A DNA stretch of 64,000 nt, taken from the NCBI GenBank assembly GCA_021432635.1, contig MU270071.1:158392-222391 (forward strand), written 5' to 3'. Of the stretch, positions 1 through 49,892 are shown piece by piece. Position 1 is the first letter of the stretch. The number at the start of each line of letters is the position of its first letter. The position numbers were made by a program, and so were the translations under genes. The stretch comes from Thozetella sp. PMI_491 (taxonomy: Eukaryota; Ascomycota; Sordariomycetes; Chaetosphaeriales; Chaetosphaeriaceae). The notes under the pieces were generated by a model that saw only the letters and a list, made by a program, of their open reading frames with translations, did not search any database and was not told the origin of the DNA.

Positions 1-679
1 ACCCTGAGAGCCCCGACCGGCTGTGGACAAGTCTGTTGGAGTGGATGGCTCAGGACGGCCGGTTCGACATGGCCCACGTGATGGTCTGGGGCCTGAGCTC
101 CGGGGGCTATTACGCCATCCGCATTGCCCACACGCACAAGGACCAGCTCATCGGTTCCATCGCCCAGGGTGCCGGCTGCCACTACTTTTACGATCCCGAA
201 TGGCTCGAAACGGTTGACGGCCATGAATACCCCTTCCAGTACGTGCGGCCCCGGACGGGTCTTGTCGCTCTGCCGCTCTGGGCCACTACTAACTCAATCC
301 ACAGGCTAACTCCGGCCATGGCCATGAAGCATGGGTACAGCTCGGTTGAGGAATACAAGGCTGGCGTGCAGCAAAAGTTTTCTCTCCTCGAAACGGGCAT
401 CATACAGAAGCCCTCCGCCAGGCTTCTGCTTATCAACGTGAGTCCACCCTTCTTTCCACCACCTTCCCTTCTCTTCCCCCCCTTCCGGGCGACCGAGTCT
501 CTGACGCTATGAGTTAGGGCACCTTGGATGGCCTGATGCCGATCGAGGATTCCATGATGTTGTTCGAGTACGGCACCCCGAAGGAGGCCAGGTTCTTCTC
601 GGGGGCGCTCCATATGGGCTACCCCATGGCTAATACATCGGTTTATCCCTGGATGGAGAGTGTCATGGCATCGGTGTAA
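1..679 (+). CDS. Ayg1-type alpha/beta hydrolase, 3' part
   Basis: The 5' part lies outside the window. Two exons are visible, 1-437 and 518-679, joined over an 80-nt GT-AG intron; the frame is open from base 3. The protein shows a nucleophile elbow GLSSGGY followed by YAIRIAHTH, then after the intron [11 protein letters not shown] (acid Asp) and GALHMGYP (catalytic His). This order of Ser, Asp and His with these surroundings is that of the FrsA/Ayg1 family, whose fungal member Ayg1 shortens a heptaketide in DHN-melanin synthesis; other members are dihydropseudooxynicotine-like hydrolases. The substrate here cannot be told from the sequence, and no polyketide synthase lies in the window. The stop codon is at 677-679. 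It converges on the SDR gene, with 267 bases between the two stops. Confidence 0.85.
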
Positions 680-946
680 ATGGGACAAAAACGGGAGGAT
701 ATGAATGGCGAGGAGTCGGCAGCTTTTCTCGTTGATCTTGTGTGAACATGTGTGAACAACACCGGGGACAAAAGCATTGGCTAGGGTATCTAGGCATGGC
801 AATACTGTGCGGCCTTGTTCGAGTCACAACCCACCAGCCCGTTTTTGTGACTTTTCATCCGTTTATATATATATCCTGAAGACACGCTTCCTTCCCAGCT
901 TGCCTCGGGCCTTCTATTCTCTCCCTCTCGGTCTTCTTTCTCCAGT

Positions 947-1841
947 CTACCGACCCATCCACCCACCATCCACTAGTAGTGTGGTACCTGTCACGTAGGC
1001 ACTTGCCTTGCTCGCTAGGAACACCGTGGTGCCTTTAAAGTCCTCAGGCTTACCCCATCGCCCAGCCGGTATCCTCTGGTTTATGCTCGCTAGCCTCTCC
1101 GGGTTGTTGAGCAAGGCGGTGTTCATGTCGGTGTCAATGTAGCCCGGGGCGATGCCGTTCACGTTGATACCCTTGGAGCTAAGCTCGTTAGAGAAGCTCA
1201 TGGTCATGGTGCCGATGGCGCCTTTGGAGGCGGCGTAAGCCGGGATGGTCAAGCCGCCTTGGAAGGTTAGAAGGGAGGCGAAGTTGATGATGCTGCCCCG
1301 GCGGCCGGTGGCCGGCGAAGGGTCAAGCGTGAGCATGTGGGCACCGACGTCTCGGCAGAGGGTAAAGACGGTGTTGAGGTTCACCTGGATAACCTCGTTG
1401 AAGTCCGAAGTCGGGAACTGGTGGCATGGGTGTCGGCGCTGGATGCCGGCGCAGTTCACGAGGATGCGGATCTGGTGCCCGTCAGCCAGGACCTTGGGCA
1501 CCAGCTTCTCGACGTCCTCGGGCGAGCTCAGATCAGCCGTGTAGATGGCCGCTTTTCGGCCCAGTGACTGGACGGCTTTAAGTGTCTCTGTCGACGAATC
1601 GTCCCTCTGGGCCCGAGGCCATGGGTTAGCAAAGGGGAAGAGGCGCAGAGCGGGGGGGGGAAGGGAAAAGGCGGCGACCCGGCAGTGTGGATTGCCTTCT
1701 GTTGCGCACCTGGACCAGGAGAACATCGGATCCAGCCTCGGCAAGGGCGATGGCGACGGCCTGGCCGATGCCACGGGTGCCGCCGGTGACCAGGGCGGTG
1801 TGTCCCTCGAGCGAGAACATGTCCTTGACGCTTGCTGCCAT
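947..1841 (-). CDS. Short-chain dehydrogenase, 2-deoxy-D-gluconate 3-dehydrogenase (KduD)-like
   Basis: Exons 1841-1710 and 1606-947 with a 103-nt intron give 263 aa, the usual length of classical SDRs. The Rossmann motif TGGTRGIG is at about residues 19-26. The NCAG motif follows in exon 2, then the catalytic Ser in NFASLL and the YAASK Tyr/Lys pair; the tail ends LLVDGGWMGR. The closest family that fits (LEGHTALVTGGTRGIG, GRWGKPEDF) is KduD-like 2-deoxy-D-gluconate 3-dehydrogenase, an NAD-dependent enzyme of sugar-acid catabolism; the substrate is inferred only. The gene is divergent from the polyol dehydrogenase at 3088, which suggests shared control. The start is the first ATG, directly before MAASVKDMFSLEG. 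It could equally act on another keto-sugar or polyol. Confidence 0.88.
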
Positions 1842-3087
1842 CTTTGGGCTCGCTCGTCTCTCTCCTTTGGTGTTTCGAGTATACGGGTTAAAGCTGTGGG
1901 AGGGATTCGAATTGGTGAGCGTCCGTTTTCCTTTCCGGGCGGGTTATGAAGCAGAAATCCGTAGCCGATTGGCCCGGCCGTTTCGGCCTATGCAGGACCT
2001 GACAGGACAGGCCCCGTCCGTCGTCGGGCTCACACGACTAAAGCCAAGGTTTCTCCTCCCTTCCCCAAGTGCTGCCCCGCTGCTGCTACAAACTTTCGAG
2101 GAGGGGCACGGAGGGGCACCTCTGTGCGGGGTGGGTTCACGAGGATACAGTACAGTATTGTACATGGCGACCTCGTGGCGGGGTCTTCCGGGGCTCCTCC
2201 CCGGCCTCTCTCTTCGGCAATTGATACCTAGAAAGCCGATAGAGGGCATGGCGGGGTCGATTGGGGGTTAGGGGTAGACGGCGGTTTACCGAAACGGAAC
2301 CCCTCTAGCTCGTTATCCGTTCGGTCTCAATTGCCGGCCGTCACGTCCAGCAAAACTCCTTGTGCGCTCAAGCAGACAGACAGAAGGGCCCGGTTGAGGA
2401 GCCTCCGAAAAGTCCGGGCTGGCCCTCCTTCCCCGCGACGCTCTGAGGCGTGTCGCCGGGAAGGTGCGGTAGGGGTTATTTCTTCGTTTCCGCAGGCCTT
2501 CTCGCTCTTGCTCTTCTGGTCATTTCCCGGCTTCCAGGGGCATGCATGCAACGAACTGCTCCGTCAAGAACCGAACGCCGAGGTCCTTCCGCATCGGCTC
2601 CGTGTTGGGTCGGCTGATCACTCAGGTCGTCTTAGGCCGAAGCTATGCACCGTCTCAACCTCTCCGCCTGCGCCGTCGATATCGGAGCCAGCGGAAACCC
2701 CAGTCCCTCGGTTTCTGCAAGTCTGGTGGCGCGTAAGGTCATGCTTTATTTCCCTTTTTCCCTTCTCCTCCTCTCTCTCCTTTTCCCCCTTTTTCGGCGT
2801 GCGGTACTTGGTCCATTGGGTGTGCTTGTACATACCGGGCTTCCATAGTCGACAAGAGCTTCGTCGTCGTCGTTGTCCCCCCCCGTGTCCTCGAACCCGA
2901 CGCCGAGCCCTACTCACATCCCCGTTGCCCCCTTTGCTTCACCATCCCGGCGGCCTCTTCACGCTCTTCTCTCTTCTCTCTTCCCCCCTTCCAATTTCTC
3001 TCTCCGGGAACCTCCGTATATCTCCAGTCCTTGCGTACCAGCCCCGACAATCAAACCTACTATCGTGCCCGAACCACACTCGTAGTC
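1842..3087. promoter_or_regulatory. Divergent intergenic region between SDR and polyol dehydrogenase
   Basis: No coding exon is seen. The SDR start lies on the left and the polyol dehydrogenase start on the right, so it must hold both promoters. Long pyrimidine tracts at about 2745-2800 and 2960-3005 precede the polyol dehydrogenase start, as is common in fungal promoters. Short ORFs here lack any recognisable motif. Confidence 0.6.
2178..2256. promoter_or_regulatory. Cluster of CreA/CRE-1-like SYGGRG sites
   Basis: Four matches to the carbon catabolite repressor consensus SYGGRG lie within 79 bases: GCGGGG at 2178-2183, CCGGGG at 2188-2193, its complement at 2199-2204, and GCGGGG at 2251-2256. 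They sit between two divergent sugar-metabolism genes, where glucose repression would make sense. The consensus is short and the DNA GC-rich, so chance matches are possible. Confidence 0.3.
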
Positions 3088-4446
3088 ATGGCAGCCCAGA
3101 CTGTAAAAGCCTCGGTCCTCCACGGAGCAAAGGACATGCGTATTGTAAGATACACTATGTTGTAGGTCCTTCGGGGTAACCTCTCACAAGCCACTAGGAG
3201 GAGCGCCAGCTTCCCTCACTCGCGGCCGGCGACGTCGAGGTGGCAGTCAAGGCGACTGGCCTCTGTGGTTCTGACCTCCACTACTTTCATCACTACCGCA
3301 ACGGTGACATTTTGGTCCGGGAACCCATAACACTAGGCCACGAATCCGCTGGTATCATCACCGCTGTCGGACCCGGAGTCACCGCGCTCAAGGTCGGCGA
3401 TCCTGTTGCCCTCGAGGTCGGCCAGCCCTGTGGCCAATGCGCCCTGTGCCTGGAGGGCCGCTACAACATTTGCCGGGAGATGCGTTTCCGCAGCTCTGCC
3501 AAGTCATATCCTCATGCTCAAGGCACCCTCCAGGAGAGAATTGCGCACCCGGCGGCCTGGTGCCACAGGTGAGCCCCCTCGCCCTAAACACTAGAGCGCC
3601 TTGAGCATGCCGGGCTCTCTGTTGGGAAGAGGCTGATGCTCACGCGACGAGCGCTCTAGATTGCCCGAGAGCGTATCCTTGGAATTCGGCGCTCTGGTCG
3701 AACCCCTGTCCGTGGCCCAGCATGCAGCAGACCGGGCGGGCCTTCCGACCGGCTCGACCATCCTGGTGCTTGGCGCCGGCGCGGTCGGTCTCTTGTGCGC
3801 CGCCATCAGCAAGGTGAACAAGGCGAAGGTCGTCATAGCCGACATCAACGAAGATCGCGTCCGATTCGCGGTCGAGCACGGGTTCGCGGACGCATCGTTG
3901 GTCGTACCCATGAAGCGCCCCGAGACCATAGCCGACAAGCTCGAGTTCGCCAAGGAGGTAGCAGAGGCGGTCAAGAACACAAAGGTCGGCGGCGAGGCTG
4001 TTGGTGAAGTGACGGCTACTTTCGAGTGCACTGGCGTCGAGTCTTGCCTGCAGTCGGCCATCTATGTAAGCTCGAGCCTTGCCCTTCCCTCCCCCCCCAG
4101 TGGTGTTCCCACTTCCACCTAGGCCCTTTGGCTGACATGACAACAATAGGCCACCGGTCCCGGCGGCAAGATCATGATTATTGGCATGGGCAATCCGATC
4201 CAGACCCTGCCCATCTCGGCCGCTGCGCTGCGCGAGGTCGACCTCGTCGGTGTTTTCCGTTACGCCAATACCTACCCCCGGATCATCGAGTTGCTCGCGA
4301 GTAAGAACCCGCTGCTTCCAGATCTGAGCAAACTCATCACCCAGCGGTACACAGGGTTAGAGAACATCGAGAAGGCGTTCGAGATGGCTGCGAAGGTCAA
4401 GGATGATGAAGGCAACCTGGTGTTGAAGGTGATTGCACAGCTTTAA
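3088..4446 (+). CDS. Zinc-dependent polyol (sorbitol/xylitol) dehydrogenase
   Basis: Four exons, 3088-3144, 3198-3568, 3660-4065 and 4150-4446, give 376 aa, typical of medium-chain polyol dehydrogenases. The catalytic zinc site is visible as GLCGSDLHY and GHESAG. Only some of the usual structural-zinc cysteines can be read, in CGQCALCLEGRYNIC. The NAD-binding motif GAGAVG follows in exon 3, and its neighbour VIADINEDR carries the acidic residue that favours NAD over NADP. Enzymes of this group oxidise sorbitol or xylitol to fructose or xylulose in the cytosol; which substrate is used here is not decidable by eye. The exon 2/3 joint rebuilds HPAAWCHRLPESVSLE, a conserved block, which supports the model. 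It is divergent from the SDR and convergent with the aldo/keto reductase, 296 bases away. Confidence 0.93.
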
Positions 4447-4742
4447 CGGACGAAAGGAAAGGTTTAATTGCGGCGCGTGGCTGGCTGGGTATAGATCTAG
4501 GTTCTGCTGTGCATCTACGAATTTTCTGGGTAGCGGAGGAGGGGGCAAAAGCAAAATGGTACGTAGTACAGCTGAGCTACAGCCAATAAATGCACGACTT
4601 GAGGAGGACGGACGTCTGCTATGCGGGCCGATTTTTAACCATCTATCAAGGTACCTTGGAATTCTGTCTATCGCCCAGGCTGTCTGTCCGGATTACCTGC
4701 CACGGCTGCTGCATACTCTAGCATCATCGCAATTCTGGCGCC

Positions 4743-5954
4743 TCAAGACTTGTCTGGGAAGCCAAAATCCACGCCGAAAGGCGGGTACACGAAGCGCTGG
4801 AGCTTGCCATCCTTGGTCAGCGCGTCCGAGTAGTCGTTGAGCAGCTTCATGTCCTCGTCGTCTAGCTTGAGGAGCTTCTTGTTGGCCTCAATTCTCTCGG
4901 GCGTAACCGACTTGGCGAGTACGGTGCTACCGCGCGGGACTGTTTGTATAGTATGCCTTTAGTCATCTGGACCACCTCACCATCTTGTGCTCCCACTACG
5001 CCGTCGTGGCAAGGGTAGTTCAGGGGCCACTTACTGTGATAGCTCAGAAGCACCGCGGCCGCGGTGGCGCCGTGCTTCTCGGCGATCTTGACGACCGGCT
5101 CTGCCGTGAAGAGCGGGCCGCCCGTGCTGCCGAGGGGGCTGTAGGCCATGATGTGAATGCCCTTCTCCTTGCAGAGATCGACGATCTCCTGCTGCGGCAG
5201 CGCGGGGTGGTTCTCGATCTGGTTGACGGCCGGAACAACAGTGGCGTGGGGAAGGAGCTGCTCGAGGTAACGCTTGCTGTAGTTGGAGACGCCAATGGCC
5301 TTGGTTTTGCCCGTGGCAAGGGCTGCCTCCATCTGCTTCCACCCGTCCACGTGGTTGTAGCTCCTGATGATGTCGCGAGAGCCGTCGGGGAGCTTGGGGA
5401 ACTTGTCGTCGTTGCCTAGGAGCGCCATGAGCTATGCCGAGTCTTCTCCACCTCTCTTTCTTGTCCCTTTGGTCACGCACCTTCGGGGTTCATCAACAGG
5501 GGCCAATGCTGCAGGAGACGATCAGCTAGGCTCCTGGGCAACGAGCCGGGGTGGTAGTTAAACTCACAACCAGGAGCAGGTCCACATAGTCCAATCCCAG
5601 GCTCTTCAGGCTCTTCTCTAGGCCGAGCTGTACGCGGGTAGTGTATGTGGCCCACACCTTGGTGACGACGAAGACGTCCTCACGCTTTACGCCGGCCGCG
5701 AACGCCTCTTTGAGGCCCTCGCCAACCTCGTCCTCGTTCCCGTAGCAGTAGGCGCAGTCAACAAGCTTGTAACCGTTCTGGAGAGCGTAAGCGACGGCGG
5801 CCTTTACCTGGCCGGCAGGCGACTGCCATGTCCCTGTAGTGCCGTGTTAGCATCCCACGTCCTAGACCCAGTAAAAACCGCCGAAGTTGGACCAACCGAG
5901 ACCGAGGGCGGGAATCTGCTGGCCGGAGTTGAGTTTGAAGGTCTGGTCCGTCAT
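4743..5954 (-). CDS. Aldo/keto reductase (GCY1/glycerol dehydrogenase-like)
   Basis: Five exons, 5954-5897, 5833-5568, 5508-5481, 5415-5035 and 4939-4743, join in frame to 309 aa. The start MTDQTFKLNSGQQIPALGLG is the normal AKR N-terminus. The catalytic tetrad can be read: Asp and Tyr in VDCAYCYGNEDEVG, Lys in VVTKVW, His in LLVHWP. The 28-nt third exon carries HWPLLMNPE and is required to reach the active-site His. The fourth exon begins at an acceptor inside CCTAG, giving NPEGNDDKFPKLPDGS. The first donor is GTTGGT, unusual but needed to keep the conserved GLGTWQ. Such enzymes reduce aldehydes and keto-sugars with NADPH; glycerol, glyceraldehyde and pentose substrates all fit. It is the third oxidoreductase in a row and may work with the polyol dehydrogenase. 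Confidence 0.9.
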
Positions 5955-7127
5955 GGTGCGAGAGGCTCCTCTGGGCTCTCTTCTTCTACTTGTCTTCTGT
6001 CTTCCAAAGGAAATCGCGCGAGAACGGCGAGGATGTGCGAGGAGGAGCCGTGAAACGAGACGCAGGACAGGGAACGGCTAAGTCTGGTCCGTTGCCGCCC
6101 TGCAGTCGGCTAAATGGCTATCTTATGTAGGCCTACGAGCTGGAGCTATGTCGCCCCTCCCCCCATTACTCCGTACCCCCGCGCAAGAAACCCCATCAGC
6201 TAGGGGCAGGTGGAGAGGGACGTGGAAGGGGGGTAGCGTGGCCGAGAGGAGGGGTGGTAGAGAGATACCCCTGAGCCGCCGCTGGGCAAGTTGGACTCAA
6301 GTGGCACGGAACGGTCTAGGCTATTTTTTCTTCTTCCCCTTCCGCAAAAGTGATTTTGTAGGCCCCTTTCTTGTTGACTTGCCCCTTTCTTTCGCTCGTG
6401 ATGCGCACCAAACCATAACGCTCATTCAGTCGAGCCAGTTCTTGTAAAAAGTGTGTCGCCATCTGTTTGCATTCTCTTCTTTTCCTGGAAACCCCACGAA
6501 GTAACCGGGGAGCACGAGTAATTCAACGGCCTTAGCTGCGTCACAGCTGGCGCTCTAAGCCCACCGCCGACGCCCTTAGCAAGGGCTCCGAGGCCGGCAA
6601 TCGGGCTAGCTTTCGGCCACTGTCCGTCGATAGCGGGTCTAGATCGATAGGTGGAAAAAACTCCAGAAGCCGCCGAGAGCTCCGTTTCGGCCTAGCTTCA
6701 CCCGAAACGGGGGAGCCACCAGAGTCGGCAAACCAAGGAGTCGGCTCTCTACCTGCTTTGTAAATTGTAAACCGCTCTACGCCTATACCAGAATACTCTT
6801 CAGGCTGAGACGCTGCTTGTGCGCGAAATGTGCTGTGCCATCTCGCACTGGTTTTCGACGGGCCCCTTTTGGTGCGGCCATCTCCTGCCGCTTCGGATGC
6901 TACCCGTCTTTTGAGCGTGCACGGATGCCTCGAGAATACCTCGTTCAAATGCCTACGTACTTACATTGTTGGAGACCAGTACTGTTCGAGGGTTCTTGGA
7001 CCTGGTTGGGTACAATTTATTACAAAAGAGCCATGCGATGGTCTATGTTGGACGCCACTGCGGTGTATCGAAACGCTAAAATAGTTGTACACGAATCCTA
7101 GTTTCACAAGCCCGGCGGACGAGCTCT
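5955..7127. other. Intergenic, no gene seen
   Basis: It lies upstream of the aldo/keto reductase and downstream of SED5. It holds a T-rich run at about 6323-6340 and scattered short ORFs without motifs on either strand. The left third should contain the aldo/keto reductase promoter and the right end the SED5 3' untranslated region. Confidence 0.5.
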
Positions 7128-8746
7128 CTACCCGGCAATCAATACCCACAGGAGGACTATCATAACCATCAGTTAGAATGCATTTCGTTAAGGGCAAACA
7201 AAATGGGGCGTTGACTAAAAGGGGGAAACGGGGGCAGGGGGATCCAGAGCAATATGATGGCGGTGCTCTAGTACGGCGACGACGACGCCAGAAGGCATCC
7301 TGGGTCAACATACAGAAAATCATCTGGTTACAAGTTAACAGGAGGTCTAGGGGGGCTCGGGTGGCAAGGCCTACTAGGACGCCAAACATTTTGGCTATTA
7401 GCCACCGGTTCCCGGACACCCGGTTCCAGTACTTGAGTAACTCTCGCTGAGCACCTGCCACGTTGTCGACGACATCTTCTCTGTGGTCTTGTGAGCTATG
7501 ACCTAGCTATTGTGAGCTAGGAGCCTATTTCTTACGTGTTTGCGTCTATGCGCTCGATCTGTCGGAGGCTGTGTCAGCGTACGAAGCAGGGCAAACTTGG
7601 CACGCGCCAGAAAAAAAGGACAAGGGTAAAGAGGGAGAGGGGTGGATGAGCCTTACCATTTCTGTTTGCTCGTTCACCATGGCCGCGACTATAGACTTGT
7701 TAGTAACGGGTCACGTGGATGACTGCGACGCCGTCCTTACGTTGACCGAACTATCAAGCAGGTTAGCATTTCCTCGATGGCCAGTCCCTTCTGAGGGCGC
7801 CTTACAATGCTGCCTAGCTCGTTGATGGTCGACTCGATAGCCTCAATGGCCTGCCCTCTCTCCTGGATGTACGTATTCTGTGGCTGGGCCTCCTCCATCA
7901 TGAGCAGCTGCTGATCGCCTACGGGATTCAGAGAAAGCAGATCCGCGCCCGGGGACGGGGTGCCGCGGTTTGGCGTGCCGTACAACGGGGAAGACGACTG
8001 CTGGATCGGGAGGTGGGTGTTCTGGGAGACTGTGGAGATGAAATTGTCCGTCCTCGACCTCGAGGCCTGAATGTTCTTGGTGCGCACCTCCAGCACGTCC
8101 TTAAAGTTGGCTGATACGTCGGTCAATTTTCCTTGGAGAAGGAAGACCACGTTCTTGTTGTGCTCCCCTTCTTGGTCCGGCTTCGGGTGCAGCTGTTTGG
8201 AGAGCGCCTGGAGGCCTGAGATTTCCTGCGTCCATGTGAGCTGTTACTCATTCCCGTTTGTTCCACCACTACTCATCCTTGCATGTCCACGTACTCTATT
8301 CAGCGAAGAGAGGTCTTGCTTGATGATAAACGTGAGCTCGTTGATCTCGACCGGCCGGTCGTCAAAGAGAGTCTTTCTCTTGGCCACTGTCCCCTTCCAG
8401 TTAGCATACTCCAGGCTAAGGCAAGGTACTGGGGTTTGCCTACGCTGTGCCAACTTCTCCAGTTTCCCCATGGTCGCAGATATCCCGCGCCCGATCTCCG
8501 CGGCCTACCAACCCACCTCCACGTTAGCGCCTGAATGTTGATTCCTTTCGTCACGCGAAACAGTCGTACCTTGCGCGCGAACTCGGATCGCCGTGGCCGC
8601 CCATTGCCATCGGCTGCGTTCTTCTGAGAATCCGTCAGGAGAGACCGTCGCTGTGCGCCAACTTTAGACGCGGCCTGGCGGCGCTCGGCTTGCGCGACAA
8701 TCGTTTTGAACTCGGAAGTTCGGTCTTGTATCTGTACGGCACCCAT
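7128..8746 (-). CDS. sed5: Syntaxin Sed5 (Qa-SNARE of ER-Golgi transport)
   Basis: Ten exons rebuild 319 aa: 8746-8570, 8504-8444, 8386-8295, 8225-7806, 7750-7741, 7688-7657, 7558-7536, 7480-7375, 7323-7314 and 7156-7128. The N-terminus MGAVQIQDRTSEF is the Sly1-binding peptide of Sed5/syntaxin 5. An Habc region follows, then the SNARE motif with the zero-layer Gln at about residue 261 (MVNEQTEM). The tail anchor ends KMFGVLMIFFLLWVLIAG. Sed5 is the target-membrane SNARE of the cis-Golgi, pairing with Bos1, Bet1 and Sec22. Two exons are only 10 nt long. One supplies FGQ plus the first base of the next Leu codon inside the SNARE motif; the other supplies MIF plus the first base of the next Phe codon in the membrane anchor. 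Without them neither conserved block can be read, so the model is strongly constrained. Confidence 0.93.
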
Positions 8747-24896: not shown

Positions 24897-27172
24897 TCAG
24901 GCTGGGGGGGCCGACGGAATCGTCACAGACAGCCGCTTCGGGTTGTCCCCATTCTCCTGGTCGGGGTTGAGGGCTTGCGGGGAGTCACTGTCGCTCGAGG
25001 GGAGGCCATTCCGCTCTTCGGGAGTCGATGGTGTAGGCTCTTGGACCGCGGCCACTCTATCCGATGCTGCGTTGGTATCCTCTGGGGAGGGCACCTCAGT
25101 CGGCACCTCGCCGTCCGCCTCGGCAAGGACACAAGGGTTGCGACTCTCCTCGACCGTTGTCGTGCCCTCGAGCTCATCGTGGCTCGCCCGGGGGCTTTTT
25201 TCTCCACGAACACTAGCGGCAACACTCGAGCTAGGGGCATGGCCGTGGCCAGCCGGAATTACACCGCCTCCGATGCGACTCCAGAACATCTGCTCCCGCA
25301 GGCGCACAGTCTCCTCCCAGGCTGCCTTCTCAGCTTCTTCGTCTTCGGCACGCCAGTGACCATCTTTGACGATGCGCAAGAAGCCGAGAAAGTCGCAGGT
25401 CGACCGCACTCTGGTAAGGCAATACTTGCAGAGGGGGTATCTCTGCGCCGTGGTGGACTCGCTAGTTCGGAAGCGATGTTTCCGGAGATGGTCCTCCTCT
25501 CTCCTGTTCTCACCGCATAGGGAGCATGGGTAAAACTCGGGCTTCGAGAGTTTTGACCAGGCCCCGGTGGCTGGGACAGGTTCAACCACAAGCGAGCCGT
25601 CCGTCATGGCGCTCAGCACGGTACGGCGAGCAAGCCACGAAAGCCCCGGGGCAGTGTCAAGTCGTAGTGTAGGCTCGATGTCTTCGGCGAGGGCGCGCTT
25701 GTAAAACTTCGTGTCTTTGAGGGGCGGAAGAGCCGGGATCGAGGCAGCGGATCCTGTGCTGATGGACGAGGCAGGCGTGTTCGGCGTCTGGGGCGAGCTG
25801 GTCGCCGGGGTGGCGGCATTGGGCAGCGACGCGTTGGAAGCGTTGGAAGCGGCGGATCCAAGGCTAAAGGTGCCGGATATGACGCGGCCGGAGTGTCGCT
25901 TCGAGGTCTGAACGAGCTCTTTGAAATCGCTGAATGCATGCAGATCGGTTCGGAGAACGGGCTGGAGCAAGTGGGTGAAGCTGGTCGGGTAGGATGGGGA
26001 GAGCGGTTCCAAGAGGCCGGGGTGCGGTGCCCCATCCGAGTGGCCGTCTTCGTCTTTGGTGTCGAATTTGCTAAAGCCGGGGGAGGACGGGACGGTTGGG
26101 TTCGTCTGGTCGTCGCGCTCCAGGCTCATTTGCTCCATGACCTGCTTGAGCTCGACGAGCTGCTCCTGCTGGGACTTGAGGAGGACTTCAGTATCCTCCA
26201 GCTGGGAGCGGAGCTGGTCGTTCTTCCTCTGGAGCGCCTCCTGCTCCGCCTTGGCCTCCTCTTTGGCCGAGATGACCATCTTGTTGGCCTCCTCAAAGAG
26301 GGCCGCGGTTAGGTTCTCCAGCTCCTGCTCGATCTTCTTCTTCTGCTGCTCTACCTCCTGCCGCGACTTCCTCTCCTCCACCACGCGTTTCAGAAGCTGC
26401 GTCTTCTCCGCTTCAACCGTCTGCCGGCGCACCCACACGTCGCCGGCCAGCATCTCCCTTTGACTATCAACCTGCGCCTCGAGCTGACGTATCCTCTCGT
26501 GGGCGGCCTCCAGCTCCATCCTAGTAGCGGAAAGGGTGTCGTCAAGCGTGGTCTGGTGGTTGATGGCATTGATGAGCTTGGTGCTCAGTGTGGCAACCTC
26601 GTCGTCGAGGTCCGGGTGGCGAGGACTGGACGACCCTTCCTCGTTCGCGGGGCTCATAGCCCGGCTCCTGGGGTCAGGGAGGGTGCTCAAATCGTTATCA
26701 TCGAGGGACTGCGTAGAGAACATGCGCCTCGCCGAGGAGCCGGCAGCGAGCGCTGCAACATCGGTGGTAGACTGGGCTGCGGACCGTAGCGACTTGGGTG
26801 TGGAGGAATGGACGACGCTGGAGAGGGATCTTGAATGCCCTAGGGTTGTAGGACGTGACACACCCGACAGTGAATGCGGAGGCCAGCCACCGGCCATGGC
26901 GACGAATCTTTGCCATGCGAGGTTAGCTTAGGGCCATGTGAAAGAAGCAGGGTGATGGAAGAACGTCAGAGGATCGGAAGAGCTATTCCCACAGCGCCAT
27001 TCCAGGGCAATATTTCGCCTTTCCAGCGACCAACTGGAGTGCCGGCAATGGCAATGGCGAACAAGAATGGGGCAAAAATCACTGCAGGTCACTTGGTGGG
27101 GGTGTGAAGAAGAGTGTTCTGAGGACAAAATAGCGAGTAGGATGGTGAACAAGGCACTTACGCGGAATCCAT
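24897..27172 (-). CDS. sec2: Sec2-type Rab guanine nucleotide exchange factor
   Basis: The long exon 26907-24897 is preceded by an 11-nt first exon, 27172-27162 (ATG GAT TCC GC), across a 254-nt intron with donor GTAAGT, branch CTAAC and acceptor CAAAG. The join is in frame and gives 673 aa starting MDSAFVAMAGGWPP; an internal ATG at 26897 is the fallback start. Residues of about 105-265 form the parallel coiled coil of the Sec2 GEF domain (QKKKIEQELENLTAALFEEA). Later a cysteine pair region, YPCSLCGENRREEDHLRKH with LCKYCLTRV, and the segment WEETVRLREQMFWSRIGG match the C-terminal half of fungal Sec2. Sec2 activates the exocytic Rab Sec4 on secretory vesicles and so drives polarised growth at hyphal tips. 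Confidence 0.88.
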
Positions 27173-33903: not shown

Positions 33904-36900
33904 TTAGGCCTCGTTCTTAGCTGTCGCCTCGTTGCCTTGCTCGCTTGCTGGCTTCGCTGATTTGCCTTCGCGTTCCTTCTGGCCCTCAACGCTCTCGTGA
34001 GCCTCGGGAATCGGCTCGTCAGGCACCAAGGCACCGTCTTTCTTTTGGTTCTTGGTGCTCGAGTCAACCCCCTCGACGTCCGGATGCGGTGGCGCGACGC
34101 CGCCCTGAGGATCCACTTCCTCCGGCAATTGAATTTCGTTGCCATCGGCGTCAACGACACGAGTCCTAGTCTCGTAGCGAGTCTTAAATTCAACCTTGCC
34201 CTCGAGCGCCTTGACCTGCTCCTCGTTTAGGATGTTGCCGTCCTGGTCTCGGTACTCGACTCGCTCCTCGCGAGCAACGATGCGCTGCCCGGGGGGCGGC
34301 GGTGCGCCGGAGATATCCGCCTGATGCCCTGCCGGCTGCTCGCCACCCAGCGGCTTCTGATTGGCATCGCCGCCTGCTGGCGCCGCGTTCACGGGCGGGG
34401 GCGCGGCCGCCTGCTCGGTTGGGACCGGCCCTTGGCTGCTAGTCGGGAGGGACTTGTATGCATCATACTGTTGCCAACCATTGTTGTTAGCCAGAGGCTC
34501 CGCGTGCTCTTCTCTCTCTTCTCCGTCGCCGCCATCTCCTTTGGGCTTTGCCGTCTCTTGGAATCCGCTCACACTGCCGCCTACGGTGACAGGCCCGGAC
34601 GTGTTCCTTAAGCCCGATAGCAATCCGATGCTATCGGAACCACATCTGGCGCATTGTTCGAGGGCACTTGCTCCTTCCACGTAGGTCCAGCTTCTAGTGT
34701 CGCTGGGGCATCTTCCTCTCGGGGATCGCTTCGGGGGGAGCACTTACGCTGTCGAGGAAGGTGTTGCAGTCAAAGTCCCATGTGTCGAACACCTTGATGC
34801 GGTTGCACTCTGCCTTAGTCCACGCGTTGCCGTAGGCAAGGGGCGCAAAGAGGCTGAAGACGGCAACAGATACAGCCAGGAGGGCAACAGCGCTAGCCCG
34901 GTTGATGATGGGATTCTCCTTGATCCCTAGCCCGGAGAAGCGCGCCGTGGCAAAGTCGAAGACCTGGCAGAACGCGATGATACCGAAGTAGAGGGCCGGG
35001 AAGTAGTGATGCAGGAAGAGTTGACGCTGCATGAGGTAGAACGGGAAATAGTGGAAGGCCCAGCCGAGGACTGATGTGCCGATCTCGAAGTCAAACCGCT
35101 TGAAGGTGGGATTGCTGTAGTCGTTGCAGCTACGCTGCCACCGGAGAACAGCAATGCCTTTGAAGAGGACATAGATGAGAACGGCCGCAGTAGCGCTGTA
35201 CCACACGATCGGGTTGCCGATCAGATAGATCTGGCGGTGGTCCTTACCCCAGAAGTTGATGCCGCGCCTCAGGATGGGCCACGATGGCGGGCGAGAATCC
35301 CAGGCGTGTGACTCGACAAGCCCGGCATTGGTCTTCCACATTACCGCCTGAAGCTCCAGGAATTTGCCGAAGAAGCCGGGGTTAGCATAGTTGACCTTCT
35401 CAGCCTTATCGCCAAGCAGGGGATGCTCGTTAGACTCGATGTACCAAACACTGTTCGGGAGAGTGCCTCCCTTGGCACAGGTAACTTCCTGCTGCTCTGA
35501 CGCCCAGTCCGGAAGCTTCACCTTGTGGGAGAACAGCACGCAGCCAGTCATGATGTGGACAAGCTTGAACTTGGTTTCGATAGTGCGAACGCGAGTCTGG
35601 GCAAGGCCGCCAGCGCTCTTCTTCTTCACGATCTCGACGCGGAACAGGTCGTTGGCGTCGCCCTCAAATCCCTCATAGCCGTATGCCGACACCTCGTTCT
35701 GCCAGTCAGCCTCGGTGACTGGAGGCCGAACGTCGTGGGAGTGAAGGCGGCGGTGAGTGGGCAGGTGGTACAGCCGGATCACGGATCCATCCTCGAGGTA
35801 AGGGAGTTCAGGGAGGTTGTCCCAGGCAGCCGTCCCGTTGATGGGCTCGCCGTGGATGTCAAGAGGCTGCGTCTGGTTCTCGATATGCCAGATGTTGTTC
35901 TCATCCTTGTGCGGGTACAGGGTAATCTGCTGCTGCTTAGAGCCACCGGGGTACATAAGAGGATGCGAGTGGAGGTATCCGCCCTGGGTGTTAACGTGGC
36001 GCAATGTAACCCGGCTGCCCATCAAAACGTCGACGGGGACATCCTGCATGCCTTTAGAGTTGAGAGTGGCCTGAAACTCGGAGCTCATGAAGCCGTCACC
36101 GTCGCCCGGATTAACGAGGCAGACGAAGTGGATTGCAAACATGGCCAAGTAGAAGGTCGCAGGGATGACGATAAGGCACAATACGCGAGCCATGAAGTGC
36201 TTGGCAAATACGCGCTAGACGTTGGTTAGCACCGGAGTCAACGAGAGAGCGCAGTTGCCTGCCCCAACGTTTAAAAAGCACCTACCACGGTGACGTTCTT
36301 CGGGTCGCCTAGCAGAACCCACAGCTGAACGAGGGTCAAGCTACCAACCCAGGCGATCGTGAACAGTCCAACCCACTTGATGCTGACGGTTGCGCCAAGG
36401 CCCAGCCCGGTCATGGCAAGCCAGAACCACCAGCTGGGCTCGAAAGCCTTGGTGGGGCCAAGTTCGTGCTGGTTGGTAAAGGAGGTGAAGGCCAGTGCTG
36501 TGAAGGCAGTTGCAATCATCAGGGGGGAGTCGAGGAGGATCAGGCGCGCTTGGGTAAGGAGTCCGTTCTCTGAAGGATAGGTTAGCCAACGAGGCAGGCA
36601 AAGGGGGTAGTGGTGGACGGCAAAGACGCACCAAAGATGACGAAGCCAGCCCCTAGGATCGCCGTGGACGTGCGGCATCCAGCAGCTTTCAAAGTGAGGA
36701 ACATGCTTGGCGCCAGGAAGATGCCACACAGGGCCGGAAACATGCGCATGGCCACGTACGGGACGCCAGGCTCCAGGTAGTCTTTACCGATGTCCTTGAA
36801 ATCGAACTCGCCGTCGAATCCAGCCAGGTAGCCGAAGAGAGTGATCATGAGCTTGGCGAGGGGAGGGTGGACGTCCATGAAGAACTTGCCCTTGATGTAC

Positions 36901-37215: not shown

Positions 37216-38794
37216 CTCGGCAAGCTGTCTCGATGATCGCTATCGGGGCCCGGGGGTTCGCGCGGGCGGTTAACGTCGAGGCGGATGGCTACTTCGCGGT
37301 TCAGTTGTGAGGAGAAGTGTACGGTGGGTGGCGGACCAGGTAGGGGGAAATCGAGATTAACGAGAGTCGAGAAGGGGTAAGAAGATATTACAAAACCGTC
37401 GTCATTGGGGTCCACGGGAGGCGGGCTGACGAGAAAAGAAGAAAGAATCGGTAGCAGCTGGGACACAGGAAGAAGACCCGACGACGCCCTGGGAAGAGGG
37501 GAGGCAGAGTCTGTCTATCGAGTTGTCGTGCTTGTTGGCTTCATTCACCCTAGGGCTGAGAGCTGGAAAGGGGTTAAAGGGCTGAGTGGGAGCGCAGCTT
37601 GCATGCCATAAATTTCCAGTTAAAGGTGGCCTCATCGTAACCTTCCCTGGCAAGATGGGATTAAACCATTGGCTCAGCTGTCAGTATGACGGGTCCCCAC
37701 ATTGCGAGGGGGGCAGTCGACGCGGCGCGCGACCCACGTCCCGCCCTGGGCGATCCCCTTGGTCCTTCCCGCAGAACGGTCGACGGGCGCTCACTGCGAG
37801 CTTGTTTCGCCCGGGTTTTCTCGCCTACGGCCGTTTTCGCGCCCAGGCGAGCCAGCAGAATCCTCCCTTCCTTCCTTGGAGAATTCCAAAGCCAAAAAAA
37901 AAAAAAAAAAAGGCTTTCTATGCGGCCGAGACAAGAACGGCATTGCAGTGAAGACCCCCTCAAGACTATCTGAGGGAGACACAGCTCAGATACCACTGCC
38001 GTTCAGGACAGATCTTGATCTTGCCCGCATCCTGAACAAGACCAGTACCCCATCCCGACCTAGAAGAAAAAGGGCGGAGGAGAGGGAAATTGGCACAGTG
38101 TACGGAGTACCGAAGAGTAGATACATACAAAATCCATGCGCCTGGACATTGGTCCGGCCTCGTATTTTAGAATTGTCGGTTCCAAGCTGTCTACAAAAAA
38201 AAAAAAGAGGGGGGAGCAGTACCCTAACTTAGTGCCTCTGTGCACTCCAAACGACGGGTGGCTGTTGGGCAACCCCCAAAGTCATTCCTCTCCCTGAGTT
38301 CGGCAGCCTCTGGAGCTCGGTATTTCCATGGCGTAGGCAATAACGAGGTACATGTTGCGGCGATGTCCGCCACTTCGTGCCAGCCAACCCAAACAGGCTC
38401 AAGGCGGAAGAGGCAGATACCCTCCTGAACAGTACCGTAATCCATGTCATTTGCAAACAAGCAGTGTATGTGTCGAAGAACCAGACTTAAAAGTCACGCT
38501 GGGAGATAGAGGGACTGTCCCAGTTTTCTCAACGTAGGTACCTGTGGTAGTACTGTAGTACCTTCGCAGCTACTCCATACGAGTACCGGAGGAGCTTGGA
38601 GCTCAGCTGCTGAGCTGAGGCCCGAAAGAAAAGCGAGCCGCAGCCCACAAGGGTGCCCCACATAAGATGGAACCCAGGTGGCGCTCGGACCAAGCCAGGT
38701 TTGTCGCGCCGGCTCTCAAACTTTTCGAGCGCATCCAACCGACCATCAACGGCCATCCCCTGCCGACAACACTAAGCCAACAGTAGCAGCAATC
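37216..38794. promoter_or_regulatory. Divergent promoter region of PMT1 and PRP21
   Basis: This 1.6-kb stretch lies between two divergent starts. An 18-base A run occurs at 37894-37911 and a shorter one near 38195. Small palindromic GTAC-rich segments are at about 38535-38595. No exon is recognised. Confidence 0.55.
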
Positions 38795-40486
38795 ATGGCG
38801 GTCGACACAAACGGCGCCGCGGCAGATGCTTCGCTCGACAACCTCAAGCCCCCTCCGGGCGTCATCATCCCCCCGCCAGGGGAGATTCGCGAGGCAATCG
38901 AGAAGACGGCGGGCTATGTCATGCGAGGAGGACTTGGCCTGGAGCAGCGCATCCGCGAGAACCATGGCTCCAACCCCAAGTTCAGCTTCCTCATGGCCGC
39001 CTCTGACCCTTACAATGCATACTACGAATGGAGAAAAGACGAGATCAAGGCGGGCCGAGGCACCGCCGTCTCTGCCGGCCGTGCGGGACCGGCCGCTGCG
39101 GTGCCGGCCAAGGAGGCTCCCCAGGGCCCCCCCCAGCCGCCCGACTATCGCTTCTCCGCGCGTATGCCGCGCATGAGCCAGAAGGACCTGGAGGTTGTGC
39201 GGCTTACCGCGCTCTTTGTCGCGAAGAACGGTCGCCAGTTCATGACCCAGCTCGCCCAGAGGGAGACTAGCAACCCTCAGTTCCAGTTCCTGATTCCCAA
39301 CCACACCTTCCACAACTTCTTCCAGAGTATGGTCGACCAGTACACATTTCTTCTTCGCGATAGCGGTGTCAACGGAGAAGGTACCAAAGCGCAAGAGGAA
39401 CGCGTCTCGGACCTACGGGAGAACGTCTCCAACCGCCTCAACGTTCTCGCGCGCGCCAAGCAGCGCGCCGAGTTCACGAAGTGGCAGGAGAAGGAGAAGG
39501 CCAAGGCTGAGGAGGAGGAGGAGAAGAAGAAGATCGAATTCGCCAGTATCGACTGGAATGACTTCGTCGTCGTCGAAACTATTGTCTTCAGCGAGGCCGA
39601 CGAACAGGCCCAACTACCCCCACCTACCACCCTCAATGACCTCGAGTATGCCACTCTGGAGGAGAAGAACAAGGCCTCGATCAGCTCAAACCTCAGGATC
39701 GAAGAGGCATTCCCGTTCGACGATACGAACTACAACGCCTACCCACCACAGTCCTACGGCGCACAAGCTCAGCCTCCTAGCACCAATTTCCCGCAGGTGT
39801 CTGTGCAGCTGCCTTCCCGCGGCCCCCCTGGACCGCCAAACGGGGTCGCTCCAACCGTCTGGGCGAAGTCTGCCCAAGAGGAGGAGGAGGAGCAGCGCAT
39901 CCAGGAGCGCGAGATGGCGCAGGCGCGGATGCACCAAGCGCAGAGCGAGGCGAGGGGCAGCACTGCTCCAATGAAGATCAAGGATAACTATGTCCCAAGG
40001 GCCGCCGCAAGGGCAGCCAACAGAACTGGGGCCCAGATGACCATCTGCCCGAACTGCAAGCAGCAGGTACCCATGAACGAGCTCGAAGAGCACATGCGAA
40101 GTATGCCCCCCTCCCCAGCCCTATCCTTCTCTCGTCTCTCTAGCTGTTCCTGCGAGCTGTTTTGTCAGAGTAACAGGTGCTGACCCATCGGTTTAGTTGA
40201 ACTCCTCGATCCGCAATGGAAGGAGCAAAAAGCCAAGGCCGACGCCCGGTACGCTACGACGAACCTATCCACGGTCGATGTGGCCAAGAATCTCAAGCGC
40301 CTCGCGAGTCAACGTACAGATGTGTTCGACACGACGTTGGGTGAGAACCTCACCGAAGAGGAACAGGCTCGGAGAAAGAAGGTGGCCCTCAATAGCTTCG
40401 ACGGCAACCCAGAAGGGCGCCATCAGGCAGTCAACGTCGAGGAGCAGATTAGGGCGATACACCAGAGGTTCTCGGACAAGAAGTGA
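38795..40486 (+). CDS. prp21: Splicing factor Prp21 / SF3A subunit 1
   Basis: Exons 38795-40100 and 40197-40486 give 531 aa. Two SURP domains are clear: residues 30-80 (EIREAIEKTAGYVMRGG with PKFSFLMAASDPYNAYYEWR) and about 127-186 (MSQKDLEVVRLTALFVAKNG with FQFLIPNHTFHNFF). A long charged helix follows, then the Prp21 core, and CPNCKQQVPMNELEEHMR, a short zinc-finger-like segment cut by the intron and continuing IELLDPQWKEQKAKADAR. The protein ends with SF3A1-type VDVAKNLKRLASQRTDVF. It belongs to the SF3a part of the U2 snRNP, which helps choose the branch site. The frame has no earlier ATG. Compared with human SF3A1 the ubiquitin-like C-terminus is absent, as in other fungi. Confidence 0.94.
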
Positions 40487-43896: not shown

Positions 43897-45167
43897 ATGG
43901 CTTCGACCATGTCGGCAGCACGAAAGGGCCCTTTCCACGCGCCGGCGGCTAGCCATGACGAGCTCCCGCTGGTTCAGTCTAGGGAGACCGGAGATGTCAT
44001 CCCGGAGGCTCGTTCCGCCGGCGTGGTGGTGCCGACCAAAGCTAGCCCCTTCGCAAAGTCATGGGCGCATCTCGTCGCCGGAGCGTTCGTACTTCCCCAC
44101 GACCGCCTTAGCATGCTTCAACTTGGTCACTAACTTTGGATTGAATCAGTGTCGGTGGCATGACTGCTGCGGCGCTGACAGCGCCGCTCGATGTGCTCAA
44201 GACCCGCCTCCAGTCCGACTTCTACCAGTCCCAGCTCCGAGCGTCCCGGGCCGTGCAAACATCCACCATGAACCCCCTGCGGGCTGCAGGATACCACCTC
44301 AACGAAACGGTTCAGATCCTCGCGTCGGTATATCGCCAGGAAGGGCCGCGGGCCCTATTCAAGGGGCTCGGTCCGAACCTTGTCGGCGTCATTCCGGCCC
44401 GTTCTATCAACTTCTTCACCTACGGCAACGGAAAGCGCGTGATTGCGCAGTACCTCAATGGAGGACAAGAGGCGGCGTGGGTTCACTTGAGCGCCGGCGC
44501 CGTTGCTGGAATCGTCACGAGCACGGCCACGAACCCCATCTGGATGGTTAAGACGCGGCTGCAGCTCGACAAGAACGTGGCGGCGCAGAGCGGCGGCGTG
44601 ACGAAGCGTCAGTACAAAAACAGCCTAGATTGCATCCGCCAGATCATCCGGAACGAAGGGATACGGGGGCTCTATAAAGGCATGAGCGCCAGCTACCTCG
44701 GCGTCACCGAGTCAACGCTGCAGTGGACCCTGTACGAACAAATGAAGTCGGCCTTGGCACGACGCGAGCAGCGTGTTCTTGCGAGCGGGCGAGAGAAGAA
44801 CTTGTGGGATCATACGGTCGCCTGGACCGGGACGGTCGGAGCTGCCGGAGGCGCCAAGCTGGTGGCAGCTATCCTGACCTACCCGCACGAGGTGAGTTGC
44901 CAGCTCGAGCTACTGGATGCAGTGGTCTATCGCAGTGCTAACCCAAGCCCTTAGGTTGCCCGGACTCGGCTGCGGCAAGCCCCGATGGCCGACGGCCGGC
45001 CCAAGTACACTGGGCTCGTCCAGTGCTTCAAGCTCGTCTTTAAAGAGGAAGGCATGCTAGGTCTCTATGGAGGCATGACACCCCATCTGCTCCGAACGGT
45101 CCCGAGTGCTGCCATCATGTTTGGCATGTACGAGGGAATTCTGCGCCTGCTCAATGCGCCGTCATGA
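43897..45167 (+). CDS. rim2: Mitochondrial pyrimidine nucleotide carrier Rim2 (SLC25A33/36 type)
   Basis: Exons 43897-44084, 44150-44891 and 44955-45167 give 380 aa. Three mitochondrial-carrier repeats are present with signatures APLDVLKTRLQ, TNPIWMVKTRLQ and YPHEVARTRLRQ. The second half of each shows the usual EG-x-R-LY/FKG pattern (RQEGPRALFKGLG, RNEGIRGLYKGM, KEEGMLGLYGGM). Insertions in the first matrix loop and the YPHEVARTRLR third signature are those of Rim2, which exchanges pyrimidine (deoxy)nucleotides across the inner membrane to supply mitochondrial DNA and RNA synthesis. The first 50 residues are a variable, disordered N-terminal extension. Introns are 65 and 63 nt; the second one separates the PHE and VARTR parts of the third signature. 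Confidence 0.93.
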
Positions 45168-48613: not shown

Positions 48614-49471
48614 TTATCGAATGTCCAGCATCTGCTTCAACGCGGTTTCCGAAGCACGCCACCATCTTCCCCTTTCCTCTAGGTCGTCCTCAACACCACC
48701 AAGAGCCGCTTCTTTCCGTCTCCTAGCCTCCCGCGCTGCTGTTGTGCTGTTCTGCTTCTTCGCCTCTAACGGTGCGAGTTCCGCCTGCAGTCGCTCGAGT
48801 TCTTTCCGCTTCCGTGGCACCTGGTTGTTCAACTGTTCCAGCTGCCTGTCCAGTTCACTAATCTTGGCTCTACGCTCGTCCAGCAATGCTGTGGTCTTGG
48901 CCAGGGGCAAGTTCAACTCCGGCCGCAGGTTCGGGTCGTCTTGGGCCCGCTTGTGCTTTGCGATGCTCGCCTCAAGCCTAGCAACTGCCTCGGGGAGTTC
49001 GCGCAGCCTTTTGGTCTCTAGCTGGACGCGCTCATACTTCCGGCTGAGCTCCCGCCCGCGGGCCTCCAGCTCCCTCACCATGTCTGCCACCTCCGTCTTG
49101 AGTGCCTTGAGCTGTGCCTTAGCCTCCGCATTCTCGGCCTCAAGGTCTGCGTTCTCCTGCGGGCTCACGATCAAGGGCGGATCGCCAACGATTGCGCGAA
49201 TGAACTTCTCCTTAGTGACTTGTTCGACATATGAGAACCGCAATTTGGCGAACAGCTCTCGATAATGCTCCAAGTCGGCTTCCAGGCTTGCTGGGGTTAG
49301 GTTATCCAGGGATGATGTAGACGCATCAGACGTCCGTAAGCTGCTCTCGTTCTTGTTCTCTTGGGAAAACGCGCTCGAGATAGGCTCGCTAAGCTTGATG
49401 ATTGAAATCTCGTGTTTGGACTGCAGCTCATCGACGGTGCGGAGCACCTTTGCCGCGCGACTGGCGTCCAT
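48614..49471 (-). CDS. Sos7/Kre28-like kinetochore coiled-coil protein
   Basis: Single exon of 285 codons. The N-terminal part contains DLEHYRELFAKLRFSYVEQV followed by TKEKFIRAIVGDPP, a block I associate with the N-terminal domain of fungal Sos7. Sos7 (Kre28 in budding yeast) partners Spc7/KNL1 at the outer kinetochore and helps recruit checkpoint proteins. Residues of about 108-260 form a long coiled coil (heptads of Leu/Ala with many charged residues), and the end reads WWRASETALKQMLDIR. The family call rests on one short block plus overall layout, so other small kinetochore coiled-coil proteins remain possible. It shares a 421-base divergent promoter with the RS-type protein gene. Confidence 0.72.
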   Translation of the reverse strand: MDASRAAKVLRTVDELQSKHEISIIKLSEPISSAFSQENKNESSLRTSDASTSSLDNLTPASLEADLEHYRELFAKLRFSYVEQVTKEKFIRAIVGDPPLIVSPQENADLEAENAEAKAQLKALKTEVADMVRELEARGRELSRKYERVQLETKRLRELPEAVARLEASIAKHKRAQDDPNLRPELNLPLAKTTALLDERRAKISELDRQLEQLNNQVPRKRKELERLQAELAPLEAKKQNSTTAAREARRRKEAALGGVEDDLEERGRWWRASETALKQMLDIR

Positions 49472-49892
49472 GTCGGAGAGACACGGTAGTGATCCGAAAA
49501 TTGTCTGGTTGTCAAATTTGCCCGCAACGGCGTGCCACTAACGAAAGATATGGTCGCGACTTGAGGCTGCGCGTGCTGTTGATTGCTTGGATTTGTTTAT
49601 TTAGAGGCTTAGAATGGTCTAGCGTAACTTTGTTCCTTATCGTGTAAGGCGGTGCGGCGGGGCAGAATCGATAGTACCTCGACTCTCCGCTAGTCCTCTG
49701 ACGTGTACCCCACTGTGCACTGAGTCTCGAATCAGGCGGGATCCTCGTCTTTCTCCGGTTCATGCTGCTCCTTCCGCAAAACCGCCCCCCCCTCCCCCCT
49801 TTTCTTTTCTGCCGCCCTGCGCCCTGATTCAGGAAGTGGTACGGCGCGTTGAATTAAGACATAACCAGCTTCTCACCCGAAACCTATCTGGG
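49472..49892. promoter_or_regulatory. Compact bidirectional promoter
   Basis: 421 bases separate the starts of the Sos7-like gene (-) and the RS-type gene (+). A C-rich/T-rich tract at about 49784-49810 lies in its right third. No TATA box is evident, as expected for housekeeping genes. Confidence 0.55.

Follow-up and report, generated by a model that had tools for sequence, protein, structure and literature searches.

The window analysed here, to which all positions refer, is a stretch of 64,000 nucleotides from contig MU270071.1 of Thozetella sp. PMI_491. On its minus strand, ten coding exons between positions 8746 and 7128 join into a single open frame of 319 residues, encoding the Qa-SNARE Sed5. 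The exons are, in order, 177, 61, 92, 420, 10, 32, 23, 106, 10 and 29 nt long, and all nine introns start with GT and end with AG. The gene product matches Pfam SNARE over the whole profile (48.5 bits), its SNARE motif aligns without gaps to solved syntaxins and is adjoined by a C-terminal membrane anchor, as in Qa-SNAREs. The Sly1-binding N-terminal peptide is present as well (Pfam Syntaxin-5_N, residues 6–23, 20 bits with a cut-off of 16.6). An earlier note on this DNA had named the gene SED5 and held that both 10-nt exons are required for the frame, which is borne out by the spliced frame and the two Pfam matches.

SED5 is found at a single locus in the 72-Mb assembly when the best-scoring candidates are considered, five of the seven matches being pieces of SED5 itself. 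The other two, on contigs C4 and C33, were rejected as a second copy and are weak paralogues. An orthologue search in viral and prokaryotic contigs matched no relative; such DNA has no bearing on conservation. Other genes assigned by Pfam in the window encode a Sec2-like exchange factor (24900-26927, minus strand), a protein O-mannosyltransferase (34697-36214, minus strand), a mitochondrial carrier (44145-44951, plus strand), the Sos7 kinetochore protein (48617-49537, minus strand) and a PA-domain RING protein (54055-56415, plus strand). A gene for the splicing factor Prp21/SF3A1 (38666-40180, plus strand) shares the window with SED5, which is probably a coincidence.

Exon structure of SED5

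The 5' part of the gene is formed by exon 1 (8570..8746, 177 nt), which carries the start codon and the Sly1-binding peptide, exon 2 (8444..8504, 61 nt), exon 3 (8295..8386, 92 nt) and exon 4 (7806..8225, 420 nt), which ends with the residues ELGSI of the SNARE motif. Intron 4 (7751..7805, 55 nt, GTAAGG...TAG) is followed by microexon 5 (7741..7750, TTCGGTCAAC, 10 nt), encoding F G Q and the first base of L, and by intron 5 (7689..7740, 52 nt, GTAAGG...TAG). Exon 6 (7657..7688, 32 nt) and exon 7 (7536..7558, 23 nt) lead to exon 8 (7375..7480, 106 nt), in which the membrane anchor begins. After intron 8 (7324..7374, 51 nt, GTAGGC...CAG), the anchor is continued by microexon 9 (7314..7323, ATGATTTTCT, 10 nt; M I F and the first base of F) and, beyond intron 9, the longest one (7157..7313, 157 nt, GTATGT...TAG), completed by exon 10 (7128..7156, 29 nt), which also contains the stop codon. 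The letters predicted at the junctions are GGCAGCATT-TTCGGTCAAC-TCGCGGCC for exons 4, 5 and 6 and GGCGTCCTA-ATGATTTTCT-TCCTCCTG for exons 8, 9 and 10.

Both 10-nt exons begin at a codon boundary (phase 0), and the last base of each belongs to the following codon. Their coordinates, letters, phases and GT-AG borders agreed throughout with the earlier description. Being internal, not longer than about 30 nt and bordered by splice sites on both sides, they are coding microexons as judged from sequence and homology. A branch-like CTAAC is located near the 3' end of introns 4, 5 and 9 (within GCTAAC, ACTAAC and TTCTAAC, respectively), while intron 8 contains TTAAC within GTTAACT. A motif scan of introns 3 and 7 found no CTRAY-type branch motif, which counts against the model. 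According to the alignment, microexon 5 carries Phe251 and the first base of the Leu254 codon, which we take to be layers -3 and -2 of the SNARE motif. The residue presumed to be the zero-layer glutamine is Gln261 in exon 6 and thus lies in neither microexon, a correction to the earlier note.

Chance expectation and other tiny exons in the genome

The chance expectation was estimated from 20,000 shuffles per exon, in which the outer splice sites were fixed and the remainder was shuffled with dinucleotides kept. The resulting counts represent orders of magnitude and not probabilities, because the criteria were chosen after the exons had been seen. When YAG, GTRNG, a branch motif in each of the two introns and suitable coding were all demanded of a 10-nt exon, none of 20,000 shuffles qualified for exon 5 and two for exon 9. 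Dropping the coding requirement and accepting G or T as the fifth donor base gave 6 and 31. Branch motifs, any GT donor and coding, the last relaxed for exon 5 and unchanged for exon 9, gave 9 and 7, compared to 1,239 and 2,461 for the bare YAG-10nt-GT arrangement.

The 72 Mb of the genome were scanned for a cassette of exactly 10 nt, preceded by a branch site and an acceptor and followed by a donor and another branch site. This cassette was matched 18 times, compared to 5 times with the acceptor destroyed and 13 times with the pattern reversed; since the two controls disagree, the excess can be given only as a range of 5 to 13. SED5 exon 5 is one of the matches, while exon 9 is outside the pattern. 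The flanks of the other 17 matches were inspected by eye, and three of them read as exact 10-nt exons, in genes for an amino-acid permease, a sugar transporter and a LicD-like protein. In the permease (L027; G000:C10, reverse, ~664918-664988), the exon GCGGCATGAT lifts the Pfam AA_permease score from 107.8 to 119.4 bits; the first intron of this gene reads GC-AG (GCAAGT...TAG). In the sugar transporter (L037; G000:C56, reverse, ~335220-335303), the exon TACTACCAAA, giving the residues NVIQ-YYQ-TILYKSLGI, raises Sugar_tr from 75.6 to 92.7 bits, and the intron preceding it seems to open with GCGAGT, also a GC donor. The third reading (L024; G000:C4, forward, ~546306-546378), in which the exon GCGAGTCTGT precedes one of 24 nt, had no Pfam match either with or without the 10-nt exon; we assume it to be LicD-like from its motif. 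A fourth match (L023; G000:C3, reverse, ~279476-279553) is a 19-nt exon (AAATTCCAGGTCCAGCTCG) of an FSH1 hydrolase (79.7 versus 64.1 Pfam bits). For the remaining 13 of the 17, inspection by eye showed no clear coding reading. Two further patterns, in which no downstream branch site was required, gave no useful contrast (23 matches versus 17 with the acceptor destroyed and 22 reversed, and 351 versus 246 and 638); neither SED5 microexon fits them, so they are no test of SED5.

Further microexons in the genome are expected if the splicing machinery handles such exons routinely. Since tiny coding exons occur in unrelated genes, SED5 is distinct mainly by having two of them, beside exons of 32, 23 and 29 nt. 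The convincing 10-nt exons of the permease and the sugar transporter were exposed by one narrow DNA pattern, and the gene models of this lineage are worth checking for missed microexons. That automated gene callers are prone to overlook exons of this kind, as had been suggested, agrees with the plant literature (PMC8831610) as well as with a case in Trichoderma (PMC11121469, section 2.4).

Effects of skipping and the question of regulation

As had been proposed, the frame is lost if either microexon is left out, resulting in a truncated predicted protein. Without exon 5, it ends ELGSI-SRPW, upstream of the zero layer, and without exon 9 it ends FGVL-SSCGY, the remainder of the anchor being lost. 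Retention of intron 5 likewise truncates the predicted protein, whereas with intron 4 or intron 9 retained, translation continues in another frame. Intron 8, with 51 nt a multiple of three and free of stop codons, would be retained frame-silently and would add 17 residues to the anchor. SED5 is essential in budding yeast. Since either skip truncates the protein, splicing has to be accurate if Sed5 is essential here, too.

The earlier note also considered the microexons a possible regulatory point. One or both of them might be regulated: Sed5 levels could be adjusted through skipping or intron retention, or an anchorless Sed5 ending FGVLSSCGY could arise when exon 9 is skipped. Each skip alters the predicted product sharply, intron 8 retention remains in frame, and the Trichoderma transcription factor Xlr2 is reported to contain a 20-nt coding microexon, supported by RNA-seq, whose use depends on glucose (PMC11121469). 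The Xlr2 exon resembles those of SED5 in being a coding microexon of a filamentous ascomycete that is needed for a conserved domain, and it was missed by the annotated model. It differs in length, in the type of gene and in its reported glucose-dependent use, whereas SED5 is a housekeeping-type gene with two predicted exons of 10 nt. Regulation is nevertheless unlikely, and the claim found no support: the normal protein requires both microexons, similar microexons are present in unrelated genes of the genome, and the RNA fold around the exons is ordinary, being no better than that of many shuffles (z -0.75 and -1.45). An RNA structure drawing the splice sites together likewise gained no support from these values. 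It is very unlikely that the two frame-shifting microexons provide coordinated control, in which slow removal of the introns around them, or a skipped exon 9, would set the amount of anchored and anchorless Sed5 in the hypha and thereby tie early secretion to the capacity of splicing and of the exon junction complex (EJC).

Alternative structures, splicing order and known microexons

For the C-terminus, 5,089 structures were enumerated, allowing at most two introns with lengths of 40-250 nt. By hydrophobicity, the microexon 9 model (2.62) ranks second of 4,953 distinct scorable tails, which was counted against it; when only the 244 distinct tails with 20-30 residues are compared, the shortest of them being unscorable, it takes first place. 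The most hydrophobic tail uses the same acceptor as exon 9 with a 14-nt exon. In Pfam SNARE, the microexon 9 model scored best of six C-terminal models with 51.7 bits, the others ranging from 41.0 to 46.1 (exon 9 skipped, 41.0; intron 8 retained, 41.0; alternative junctions, 43.9, 43.2 and 46.1). That the anchor is completed otherwise, either by joining exon 8 to 7267 (tail STAIILLWIPL...) or by a 14-nt form of exon 9 spliced to 7265, is highly improbable. Both alternative tails are hydrophobic (1.97 and 2.64, respectively), but they score lower in Pfam SNARE (43.9 and 46.1), and the 14-nt form depends on GTTGAC as donor, GAG as acceptor and an intron of 44 nt. Intron 9 contains a second hydrophobic stretch (STAIILLWIPLPP; 7229-7267, minus strand), which lies behind a TAG acceptor (7268) within reach of exon 8. 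Its resemblance by eye to the end of the real anchor (LLW) is faint, and the stretch may be due to chance or a relic.

For microexon 5, the enumeration covered structures that lead in frame and stop-free from TINE to MVNEQ through a single GT-AG intron or a pair of them, with GT donors only and a minimum intron length of 35 nt. Four such structures were obtained, of which the one with TTCGGTCAAC is the sole one with the length required by homologues and a gapless SNARE motif. Four of the six SNARE loci detected in the genome, those reading as Qa type, were aligned to SED5, while L005 and L006 were left out because they were read by eye as other SNARE classes. In all four, the corresponding residues (FQQV, FRDL, FQDL and FQDM) are encoded within one uninterrupted frame. 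The exon 5 model aligns to all four without gaps and exceeds a rival with a 4-nt exon by 11-13 points. It is scarcely credible that exon 5 is unused and exon 4 joins the acceptor at 7696/7695 directly, a stop-free and in-frame structure reading ELGSI-SIV-AAMV, one residue shorter: this gaps the SNARE motif (25.2 bits to the best solved syntaxin, 5buz_C, versus 33.7 bits with exon 5), is 19-22 points worse against all four aligned paralogues and uses an acceptor only a few bases past CTAAC. The 51.8 bits of this structure in Pfam SNARE are no judge of exon 5, because the profile begins further on. The claim that the SNARE motif and the anchor can be completed only by the two 10-nt exons thus holds for exon 5 within the enumerated limits (one of four structures), and for exon 9 on balance only.

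Since the structure of SED5 fits its protein family and chance offers no ready explanation, the locus is read as an intact SED5 gene, with six introns (51-157 nt) interrupting its 3' half and two 10-nt coding microexons that are most likely constitutive (probability about 0.78). The best reading of their inclusion is intron definition, in which the splice sites would be recognised as pairs over each short intron rather than over the exon. Pairing of splice sites by intron definition has reportedly been studied experimentally in fission yeast, in work by Romfo from 2000; the mechanism is the same as that proposed for SED5, although the lineage is different.

Coding microexons of fungi are already in print, and SED5 alone is no new mechanism. 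Phanerochaete P450 genes are described with microexons from 6 bp (PMC1184071) and Tuber NACHT-ANK genes with microexons that alternative splicing is reported to diversify (PMC3689799). Both resemble SED5 in combining fungal coding microexons with short introns but belong to other gene families, and the reported diversification sets the Tuber genes apart from SED5. The plant microexons of 1-15 nt (PMC8831610) are similar to those of SED5 in size class and in their two short flanking introns, and are described as often misannotated; they are from plants and were derived from many RNA-seq data sets. Neither SNARE nor syntaxin occurs in the main text of that paper, and a literature search, thin on subscription journals, retrieved no paper with both 'Sed5' and 'microexon'. 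SED5 provides a natural substrate for studies of how a short-intron fungal spliceosome handles 10-nt exons: its two microexons are equal in length and phase, and for either one the outcome is easily told, as a full anchor or a truncated protein.

The two introns flanking each microexon would be removed consecutively, probably the downstream one first. An exon of 10 nt is too small for spliceosomes on both introns simultaneously, so the introns should go in sequence. The downstream-first order is suggested because removal of the upstream intron first would leave the next donor 10 nt past the new junction, and in human cells the EJC suppresses donors up to 15 nt past such a junction (PMC6224609). 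Similar suppression would disfavour removal of intron 4 or intron 8 first. In plants, the introns flanking microexons are likely removed consecutively as well, and the downstream intron alone was removed more often in most cases with all read types (PMC8831610). Mago nashi, the only EJC part sought, has a homologue in the genome (124.7 bits) with one stop within the match, which is possibly an intron.
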